Below, piece after piece: positions 1,988 through 36,612 of a stretch of DNA of 64,000 nucleotides (position 1 is its first letter; each line of letters starts with the position of its first letter). The notes under the pieces were generated by a model. That model worked only from the letters and a program-made list of their open reading frames with translations, made no database searches and had not been told where the DNA came from. Position numbers and translations under genes: made by a program. Origin of the DNA: Acidobacteriota bacterium (GTDB lineage: Bacteria > Acidobacteriota > Terriglobia > Terriglobales > Acidobacteriaceae); NCBI GenBank assembly GCA_003225055.1, contig QIAU01000120.1:62001-126000 (forward strand), given 5' to 3'.

Positions 1988-3685
1988 TTGGCTCTTGACG
2001 ACAAGTACGATGACATTAAAAAGCTGATCGACGCAGGTAAAGAAAAGGGATATCTCACTTACGATCAGGTCAACGACCTGATACCGCACGATGTGCACTC
2101 TCCCGAAGACCTGGACGATCTGCTGACCACCATCGGTACGCAAGGTATCGATGTTCTGGAGGGACCGGCGAAGTTGCCGTCGTCTGCTCTGGAGAAAAAA
2201 TTCGAAGAAGTCGAGGAAGCCGGCGAAGACGTCGAGCTCGACCTCACTCCCGGTACGCTGGAAAAGACCAACGACCCCGTTCGCATGTACCTGCGGGAGA
2301 TGGGCACGGTTCCGCTGCTCACTCGTGAGGGCGAAGTCGAAATCGCCAAGCGCATCGAACGCGGCCAGAATCGGGTTCTCAAGGCTCTGTCGCGGTCTCC
2401 GATCGTGATCCGCGAGCTGCTGGCGATGGGCGAAGACCTCAAAAAAGGCGTCCGTTCCATCAAGGAAGTAGTCACCTTCGACGAAGAAGAAATCACCGAA
2501 GAAATTCTCGATAACCGCCTGAAGGAGTTCACCGGCAAGATCGACGAGTTGGCGAAGTACTACAAGAAAGCCAACCAGGTGGCGGAGAAGTTCGCGGACG
2601 TGTCCCAGAAGAAGCGTCCCAAGGATTTTCGCCGCTACCGCATGCACCTGGCGCGCGCGATCGTGCAAGTCTCGCTGGCGGTGCGCAATCTGGGCTTTAC
2701 CAACACCGAGCGCAAGCGGCTGATTGAGCGCGTGACCAAGACTGTCGACAGCATGCGCTCGCTCGACCGTCAGGTTCAGAACCTGGAGCGCAAGGCTGAC
2801 GCGACTCGTAGTGACGACCAGAAAAAGGAATACCGCCGCCAGGCTCGCCAGCTCCGCACCGAGCTGGAGAAGATGGAAGCCGATGCCAGCGTCTCGTTCC
2901 AGGAACTCAAGCGCACGCAGCGCGAGATCATCCAGGGCGACATGGACGCCGAGCAGGCAAAGCGCGAGCTGATCGAGGCCAACCTGCGACTGGTAGTTTC
3001 TATCGCCAAGAAGTATACCAATCGCGGTCTGCAGTTCCTGGATCTGATTCAGGAAGGCAACATCGGGTTAATGAAGGCCGTGGACAAGTTCGAATACCGT
3101 CGTGGCTACAAGTTTTCGACATACGCCACGTGGTGGATTCGCCAAGCAATCACCCGCGCTATCGCAGACCAGGCCCGCACCATTCGTATTCCGGTGCACA
3201 TGATCGAAACCATCAACAAGCTGATCCGCACCTCGCGGCAGCTGGTGCAGGAACTGGGACGCGAGCCCACGTCGGAAGAAATCGCCAAACGTATGGATAT
3301 TCCGGTGGCGAAAGTCCGCAAGGTGCTCAAGATCGCACAGGAACCCATCTCTCTTGAAACCCCGATTGGCGAAGAGGAAGATTCGCACCTGGGTGACTTC
3401 ATTGAGGATCGCGGCGTGGTCTCGCCCGCCGAAGCCGTTATCAATGTCAACCTGAAAGACCAGACCTCGCAAGTGCTGCGCACGCTGACGCCGCGCGAAG
3501 AGAAAGTAATCAAGATGCGCTTCGGGCTGGAAGATGGCAGTGAGCATACGCTCGAGGAAGTGGGGCAGTCGTTCGCGGTCACGCGCGAGCGCATCCGGCA
3601 GATCGAGGCCAAGGCACTGCGCAAGTTGCGTCATCCATCGCGTTCGCGCAAGCTGCGCGCATTCATGGACGGCGTGCACGATTAA
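1988..3685 (+). CDS. rpoD: RNA polymerase sigma factor RpoD (primary sigma-70)
   Basis: Housekeeping sigma factor, 565 aa, directing RNA polymerase to -35/-10 promoters. Region 1.1 covers about residues 1-70. Region 1.2 begins at [11 protein letters not shown] (about 96). A charged non-conserved region follows to about 320. Region 2 begins at [20 protein letters not shown] (about 330), with the region 2.4 helix containing [14 protein letters not shown]. Region 4.2 has the helix-turn-helix [19 protein letters not shown] at the C-terminus. The TTG start at 1988 is chosen because the sequence [13 protein letters not shown] fits family N-termini and gaggg lies 9 nt upstream. It follows dnaG, is preceded by its own extended -10 box, and ends in a clear hairpin terminator. 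Confidence 0.97.
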
Positions 3686-4338: not shown

Positions 4339-4515
4339 GCGTCGGCCCTTCCCCGGTCCATAGCAGATATGCCTTGCGTCGCCGGTGCCCAAACGGCTCC
4401 GGCAGGAGCCCGCGCCTCCCTGGCGGGTTTCTAAGCTGTTTCGTTTTTTGTTCGCCTATGGCATACTGTCGGTATCTGGTCCGAAGAAATTGTACTTTCT
4501 TGATTGTCACGGGCT

Positions 4516-4622
4516 GAGAGTTTGTGACTTTTTCGTTTTCTCGCACCGAGTGATGCTGAAAAAAAGCAGCTTACATGCCAGGAAAATCGCTTTTGAGTCC
4601 AAAAAAGTCACAAACCTGTGAG
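4516..4622. repeat. 106-bp terminal-inverted-repeat element, copy 1
   Basis: Left end gtttgtgactt (4520-4530) is inverted at the right end aagtcacaaac (4605-4615). Internal short stems ctcg-cac-cgag and gctg-aaaaaaag-cagc are conserved in the second copy at 36428-36533, which is about 80 percent identical over its length. It has no coding capacity. It is MITE-like or a structured RNA/DNA element. Confidence 0.75.
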
Positions 4623-35920: not shown

Positions 35921-36394
35921 ATCCCGGAATTCGCCATCGTTAATGCCGATTCGGCGGCACGAATCGCGCAAGCGCGTGAACTGTTTGTTGAGTACGCCGA
36001 GTCCCTGGGATTCAGCCTTTGTTTCCAAAGCTTCGACCAGGAACTTGCGGAATTGCCCGGAGATTATGCTCCGCCCGACGGCCGTTTGCTGCTGGGCGAG
36101 TATCATGGCGAACTCGCGGGATGTATAGCTTTACACCGCCTGGAATCTGACATCTGTGAGATGAAGCGATTGTATTTGCGTCCCAAATTTCGCGGTAAAG
36201 GACTGGGGCGGGCCTTGGCGATGGCCGTCGTTGCGGAAGCTCGCGGCATCGGATACCGACTCATGCGGCTCGATACGGTCGAGCCGGTCATGAAAGATGC
36301 TGTCGCGATGTACCGAAAGTTAGGCTTTTGCGAAATTGCGCCCTATCGGGCAAATCCCATAACCGGCGCAATGTACATGGAACTCGGACTGTAG
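35921..36394 (+). CDS. GNAT-family N-acetyltransferase with unusual start
   Basis: About 157 aa. The acetyl-CoA loop is LYLRPKFRGKGLGRALAMAVVAEARG, followed by GYRLMRLDTVEPVMKDAVAMYRKLGFCEIAPYRANPI. The N-terminal family sequence (PEFAIVNADSAARIAQARELFVEYAESLGFSLCFQSF, then LPGDYAPPDGRLLLGEY) reads in frame back to ATC 35921, but no ATG, GTG or TTG occurs between an in-frame stop near 35801 and TTG 36053. ATC, 9 bp after the fabG stop, would give MPEFAIV. TTG 36053 would remove a third of the fold. Substrate unknown; close relatives are putative amino-acid or small-molecule acetyltransferases. Confidence 0.75.
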   Translation: MPEFAIVNADSAARIAQARELFVEYAESLGFSLCFQSFDQELAELPGDYAPPDGRLLLGEYHGELAGCIALHRLESDICEMKRLYLRPKFRGKGLGRALAMAVVAEARGIGYRLMRLDTVEPVMKDAVAMYRKLGFCEIAPYRANPITGAMYMELGL

Positions 36395-36427
36395 ACGACG
36401 AGCACCAACATACAATGTCGTCCTGCG

Positions 36428-36533
36428 GAGAGTTTGTGACTTTTTCGTTTTTCTCGCAGCGAGTGATGCTGAAAACAAGCAGTCTACGTGCCGGAAAAAT
36501 CGCTTTAGATCAAACAAGTCACAAACTCTGAGC
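36428..36533. repeat. 106-bp terminal-inverted-repeat element, copy 2
   Basis: Left end agagtttgtgactt (36429-36442) is a perfect 14-bp inversion of aagtcacaaactct (36516-36529). The interior has the same stems as copy 1 (ctcg-cag-cgag; gctg-aaaacaag-cagt). It lies between the GNAT and dienelactone hydrolase genes. Confidence 0.75.
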
Positions 36534-36612
36534 GAGCAAGGCGCCAAGGATCTGGCGTGGCACTATCTAAGAACTCGACTCGGGTCGTGAACGCTTTGGA
36601 GGACGAAATCCC

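Follow-up and report, generated by a model that had tools for sequence, protein, structure and literature searches.

The window analysed here, a stretch of 64,000 nucleotides from a 7.41-Mb genome of the Acidobacteriaceae (G000), carries a short repeated stretch at two intergenic places. Copy 1 lies between the genes for RpoD (1988-3685) and DnaB (from 4813), and copy 2 between an ORF that we read as GNAT-like (36053-36394) and a gene for a dienelactone-hydrolase-family protein (from 36613). These neighbours are those named in the original prediction, which had been made from the letters of the window. The two copies share 84% identity across a 68-nt ungapped core, and BLASTN aligned copy 1 with copy 2 at 87% identity (query positions 1-100, E 2.4e-27), a likeness well above what chance would give, which bears out the claim that one element is present twice. 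The limits of the element were taken from a covariance model built from 37 distinct copies (R2); the 106 bp assigned earlier comprise the element and its flanking 5-mers. Either end reads AGTTTGTGACTTTTT or close to it, with AGnnTGTGACTTT as the general end pattern, and the terminal inverted repeats, predicted to be 11-14 bp long, reach up to 14 bp at copy 1. The features of both copies are collected in Table 1.

Table 1. Features of the two copies of the element (positions are those of the window)
Feature	Position	Strand	Basis
Copy 1 left flanking 5-mer CTGAG, target duplication	4514..4518	+	sequence
MITE copy 1, 98 bp, rpoD-dnaB interval	4519..4616	+	R2 99.4 bits, E 2.7e-18 (copy itself part of model); BLASTN family in genome
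Copy 1 left terminal inverted repeat AGTTTGTGACTTTTT	4519..4533	+	
Copy 1 right terminal inverted repeat GGTTTGTGACTTTTT	4602..4616	-	contig coordinates G000:C292:66602-66616:-
Copy 1 right flanking 5-mer TGTGA, differs from left; read as decayed duplication	4617..4621	+	
Copy 2, left arm of interrupted REP GTCGTCCTGCGGAG	36417..36430	+	pattern GTCATCCTGAG, 2 mismatches; a reading
Copy 2 left flanking 5-mer CGGAG, 1 change from CTGAG	36426..36430	+	
MITE copy 2, 97 bp, between GNAT-like ORF and hydrolase	36431..36527	+	R2 100.9 bits, E 1.3e-18 (copy itself part of model)
Copy 2 right flanking 5-mer CTGAG	36528..36532	+	
Copy 2, right arm of interrupted REP CTGAGCGAGCAAGGCGCCAAGGATC	36528..36552	+	sequence; a reading

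A family of short elements in the Acidobacteriaceae

A BLASTN search of G000 with copy 1 returned 30 matches; two of these are opposite strands of each other, which leaves 29 separate places. A first covariance model (R1) added weak matches, among them those on contigs C145 and C244, which were read as copies, and brought the total to about 31 places, some of them partial. Both 11-bp ends were matched exactly at four places. Apart from a 23-base match that was left out, the places in G000 are 74-87% identical to copy 1. The typical length of the element, 93-98 bp, is nearly constant across genera, and most copies in G000 measure 94-97 bp. The family was found with R1 in 4 of 61 genomes and with R2 in 14 of 398 genomes of Acidobacteriaceae, belonging to 11 of 79 genera, the own genome being included in both counts; the copy numbers per genome obtained with R2 are lower bounds, the best 10 candidates per genome having been scored. 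The genome-wide covariance-model search, which had been proposed as a check on the original prediction, yielded both further copies and relatives in other genomes. The supposed absence of coding capacity is plausible, since the lengths of the copies differ by single bases, although some open frame runs through 18 of the 31 copies. The repeated stretch is a MITE, that is, a short multicopy element with terminal inverted repeats and without a transposase gene of its own.

A pattern scan for strict ends was also run on a named genome collection, which may leave out the window's own genome. Four of the five matching stretches came from one acidobacterial MAG, palsa_286, which by coordinates is G061 and G338. 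A single match in Sideroxydans was taken as chance, its longer arms being different. That Sideroxydans MAG (DYJI01000003.1, L078, 3672-3759) holds a different element of 88 bp, which has GTTTGTGACTG ends and longer outer arms and probably represents a further repeat of a palindromic or MITE-like kind. In G000, short repeats were seen beside one copy, in the left flank of L019 (C205, about 58,920, element orientation), where TTATTCC and GACTTGTC each occur twice.

Flanking direct repeats and the REP target site

Immediately outside the ends of the element lies a direct repeat, mostly CTSAG, with CTGAG or CTCAG present in 31 of 48 copies on each side. These 48 usable copies, from five genomes, are what remains of 55 after exclusion of seven with unreliable ends (L014, L016, L018, L025, L028, L029 and L202). 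The two flanking 5-mers were identical in 23 of the 48 and agreed at four or more of the five positions in 35, agreement at each single position being found in 35 to 41 copies. Among the copies with G or C as middle base on both sides, agreement was direct in 37 and inverted in 4, so that the repeat is direct and not inverted. Retention of all 55 rows gave 23 identical pairs, 35 pairs agreeing at four or more positions, and middle bases that were direct in 40 and inverted in 7. Target duplications, for which the flanks were to be inspected, are thus present as direct repeats, and the same was found at 15 loci from nine further genomes, which lay outside model building and were detected by a model that did not contain the flanks: 12 had identical 5-mers and 14 agreed at four or more positions, compared with 109 of 60,000 pairs drawn at random with equal spacing. 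The 15 loci are those available among 21 matches (L229, which repeats a G061 copy, was excluded); 13 of their elements are distinct, and two of the 15 share the left flank. The variants CCGAG, CTCGG and CTCCG were each duplicated as such once, CTCCG in the nine further genomes.

The flanks of G000 alone gave no gain over partner shuffling, with 6 of 24 pairs identical and a mean of 5.0 in the shuffles, because most sites in this genome are the same CTGAG, and neither window copy has a perfect pair. The duplication is most simply read as 5 bp long; 3 or 4 bp would also fit, since C and G bound site and element alike. In G001, the other genome of the genus, the searches with R1 and R2 found no element, and the rpoD-dnaB intergenic alignment was too poor to give a clean orthologous empty site.

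As a rule the copies interrupt REP palindromes at one and the same position (GTCATnCTGAG^CGnAGCGAAGnATC), and joining the flanks across the insert gives a REP of the form GTCATnCTGAGCGnAGCGAAGnATC. The left arm of the REP, at up to two mismatches, was found at 36 of 47 junctions compared with 736 of 20,000 random window positions; for this count L203 was additionally left out. By genome, the arm was present in 17 of 23 copies in G000, 13 of 13 in G006, 3 of 3 in G011, 2 of 4 in G061 and 0 of 3 in G010, the remaining junction being that of the G006 IS described below. The three G010 copies, which do not have this REP arm, lie in another type of repeat that we read as CCCTGAGCGCAGTCGAAGGG. In the window, the REP is well visible around copy 2 (GTCGTCCTG...CTGAGCGAGC...AAGGATC) and weakly around copy 1.

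Unoccupied REPs were counted with a 25-bp pattern at up to three mismatches, which gave 30 in G000, 91 in G006 and 57 in G061 and none with the reversed control; with this single pattern the copy number stayed below 100. Among the matches listed for G006 and G061, many REPs stand in REPIN-like inverted pairs at a spacing of about 50-60 bp, as do G006:C37:59470+ and 59526-. The host repeats are therefore short, palindromic, dispersed and often arranged in inverted pairs, the features by which REPs are recognised. At one G006 locus (L204, contig C109, element 329-422) the flanks are two inverted REP left arms, GTCATGCTGAG and CTCGGAATGAC, an arrangement that is perhaps a recombination product.

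IS1182-family elements with the same ends

The end pattern GAGnnTGTGACTT revealed two convergent ends 1537 bp apart in G006. They delimit an IS of 1535 bp (L142) with a 462-aa transposase that scored 310.6 bits against the IS1182 model (cut-off, 270) and contains the Pfam domains DUF772 and DDE_Tnp_1. At its right end this IS matches the leftmost 17 bp of the MITE in G006 base for base (17 of 17), and the IS, too, lies inside a REP, with CTCAG and CTCGG as flanks. Several G006 contigs terminate in pieces of it. In 12 of the 13 G006 MITE copies the shared end, AGCCTGTGACTTTATTG, is turned toward the GTCAT side of the REP (one of the 12, L204, has GTCAT arms on both sides), and the IS ends that were read are oriented in agreement with these copies.

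Relatives of the transposase were detected at E 1e-25 in at least 25 of the 398 genomes, the best four candidates of each having been scored. Of 28 relative loci checked for the ends, nine from seven genomes have them (G179, G182, G225, G208 twice, G161, G087 and G312 twice), with protein identities of 39-73%; 16 do not (26-42% identity), and three show one two-mismatch match that was taken as chance. Complete ISs with closely similar ends were found in G179 (1555 bp), G182 (1484 bp, with one stop in its gene) and G225 (1503 bp). In all three, CTCAG or CTGAG is duplicated exactly in a REP context, and the transposases of G179 and G225 share their Pfam domains with that of G006. The ends mark a subgroup of IS1182, given that G001 has two IS1182-model matches above the cut-off and none of these ends. 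MITE and IS relatives occur together in G006, G179 and G161. In G179 the ends of the two are similar, and the end AGCTTGTGACTTTTTCG or a near variant points toward the GTCAT side, both for the IS and for the three of nine MITE matches whose loci were read; in G161 the sharing concerns one IS end.

The interior of the MITE contains GCTGAAAACAAnnnnCTTA at about position 36-38 (about 36-55) with 0-4 mismatches in nearly all copies read, L203 being again left out, and with 6 in two copies, where shuffles of one copy gave a mean of 6.2. When the interior was compared with the four ISs, three did no better than shuffles, and the G182 IS had one 3-mismatch match that was better than all 100 shuffles. 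These comparisons do not show the MITE to be a product of simple internal deletion from an IS.

Given these agreements, it seems very probable that the MITE is moved by the transposase of a larger IS1182-family element. On this view, ISs of about 1.5 kb with similar ends (AGnnTGTGACTTT) encode the DDE transposase of the IS1182 subgroup, which would bind the terminal inverted repeats and excise or copy the MITE, and insertion at CTNAG inside a REP (GTCATnCTGAG...) would then produce the short direct duplication, most simply of 5 bp. We hold this whole explanation, a MITE family of about 93-98 bp mobilised by an IS1182-subgroup transposase into REPs, with high confidence. What we infer is that the IS transposase acts on the MITE in trans, how long the duplication exactly is, and that the G000 copies are relics of earlier activity; the copies, their ends and duplications, the location in REPs, the matching ends of the G006 IS and the co-occurrence of IS and MITE in G006, G179 and G161 are legible in the DNA itself. 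The original suggestion, that an unseen transposase moves a MITE, finds support to this extent in the many copies, the inverted repeats, the duplications and, in a relative, an autonomous IS whose ends are the same.

The search for a transposase with matching terminal repeats was successful in the relative G006 and not in G000 itself. No intact partner IS was found in G000, G010 or G011, and a transposase search of G000 gave none at E 1e-10; in G061, 14 matches to the IS1182 model were obtained, and at 0-1 mismatch none of the 8 for which loci were available has such an end. A degenerate IS1182 region of G000 with a stop was considered as partner and rejected, its loci showing one two-mismatch end that was taken as chance. 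That these searches showed no intact matching IS in the four MITE genomes speaks for a different transposase that moves the MITE and shares its ends with the IS1182 subgroup by chance. We consider this improbable, since MITE and IS of G006 agree in their 17-bp end, their REP site and their orientation, the agreement recurs in G179 with an end sequence of its own, and most of the distant IS1182 members examined do not have these ends. The diverged copies of G000 look like orphans, remnants of past activity.

Over their 94 bp, nine of the 13 copies in G006 do not differ by a single letter, and they occupy three REP stem variants, each with matching arms (TTC/GAA, TGC/GCA and TTCC/GGAA). The REP is consequently the older component, into which the element has moved at least once independently for each variant. 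This bears on a reading of slightly lower probability still, in which REP and 94-bp insert are a single composite unit spread by a RAYT and DDE insertion took place once per lineage. The occurrence of REPs as inverted doublets, 42 Y1_Tnp matches in G000, the mostly constant orientation in G006 and a common left flank at two G179 copies are in line with such a unit, but co-movement would have kept the REP identical too in G006, one copy has CCGAG duplicated as CCGAG, and the ISs themselves occupy the same insertion site; for G006 the composite reading was rejected. Y1 (IS200-like) transposases as movers were rejected because direct duplications and DDE-type ends speak against them. The 42 Y1_Tnp matches comprise IS200-like or RAYT-like genes and fragments, several of them at contig ends.

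Folding of the element and comparison with known systems

The original prediction had also held that the element could be a structured RNA and that the preserved pairing of two internal stems favours selection on structure. The stems can be drawn, and for single strands the fold is better than in shuffled sequences (z -2.7 to -3.6), but the preservation fails when more copies of the same genome are aligned. Among 26 aligned G000 copies (26 of the 29 places; L014, L028 and L029 were left out), none of 13 predicted pairs showed compensatory change. A consensus fold applied to 20 G000 copies gave all five measures at the level of shuffles, with 3 of 36 pairs changed on both sides (3.4 in shuffles) and a covariation score of 0.101 in both; these copies are 20 of the 23 G000 rows of the cross-genus alignment, L021, L024 and L026 being out for long indels.

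The cross-genus alignment itself, 37 distinct of 46 rows, gave a mixed signal, with three of five measures above shuffles. Paired cells amounted to 78.7% versus 77.2% (3 of 500 shuffles), cells changed on both sides to 38 versus 26.8 (26 of 500), and the covariation score to 0.135 versus 0.120 (11 of 500), whereas pairs changed on both sides (10 versus 12.5) and further pair types (40 versus 41.7) were below shuffles. The internal helices were 68-70% paired versus 90% for the terminal repeats, in a comparison whose shuffles ignore kinship. Terminal repeats read by the transposase, together with kinship, can account for this signal. Rfam gave no match in the window at gathering scores, and at E 10 copy 1 had three matches, far below the cut-off, to microRNA and lncRNA families. 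In addition, the fixed place of the copies in the REP and their duplicated flanks are what transposition produces. There is no support for selection on RNA structure, and a small or cis-acting RNA kept for its fold is the least probable of the explanations weighed here.

The proposed mobilisation by an IS1182-subgroup transposase can be set beside several known systems. The MITEs of ISMac2, an IS1182-family element of Methanosarcina acetivorans, measure 160 and 169 bp and number 14 and 7 copies (PMC3852290). They resemble the present MITE in being short, multicopy and paired with a putative IS1182-family partner, and, as excerpted from that report, differ from it in their inverted repeats of 25-26 bp, a direct repeat of 4 bp or none, and an archaeal host, REPs not being mentioned in the excerpt (PMC3852290). 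Members of IS1182 are reported to target palindromic sequences, and IS1272 of Staphylococcus, which belongs to this family, inverted-repeat (stem-loop) sequences (PMC5678879). According to the same excerpted source, IS1272 replaces the stem-loop and makes no duplication, whereas the insertions described here leave the REP in place and duplicate CTSAG (PMC5678879). ISPse1 has 4-bp repeats (PMC3281130); the members of IS1182 described in these extracts have 4-bp repeats or none, a point against the present explanation. The CTSAG found here lies in a palindrome-like repeat and may be a duplication of 5 bp, the simplest reading, or of 3 or 4 bp.

Full ISs that target REPs, such as ISPsy8, ISPpu9, ISPpu10, ISRm22 and others, belong to the families IS3, IS110, IS4, IS256 and IS5 (PMC1525189). 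Like the present element they insert at REP palindromes; in the extracts of that article, IS1182 is not among the families named and the elements are full ISs and not MITEs (PMC1525189). The partly consulted texts on REPINs and RAYT-linked REPs offer a parallel to the host repeats, which are REP-like with many inverted doublets, but the element of 93-98 bp has inserted into the REP, has ends of the DDE type and is flanked by duplications (PMC3116915, PMC3733652). Searches of the open-licence literature turned up no report of an IS1182 element or MITE targeting REPs. As far as that literature shows, an IS1182 subgroup with REP-targeting MITEs, perhaps in a preferred orientation, is new.

The preferred orientation suggests, from few genomes, a polar integration complex; in G000 the ratio was 15 to 7 at a looser cut-off. 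A bolder proposal, which we regard as tentative and rather doubtful, is that the IS1182 subgroup is a dedicated parasite of REPs that reads them in a polar manner, one end to the GTCAT side, and that the MITE keeps its conserved interior and near-constant length because this interior serves transposition or the use of REPs. If this were true, miniature elements would be nested at two levels, with REPs, probably mobile themselves, as a safe harbour.

On the reading of a MITE mobilised into REPs by an IS1182-subgroup transposase, IS1182 would join the families reported to target REPs, and MITEs would be seen to do likewise. The complete acidobacterial ISs offer a narrow and directly testable target, and small transposons that are restricted in site and mostly avoid genes are of practical interest. 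For readers of genomes, the finding explains a conserved palindrome family that could pass for RNAs.
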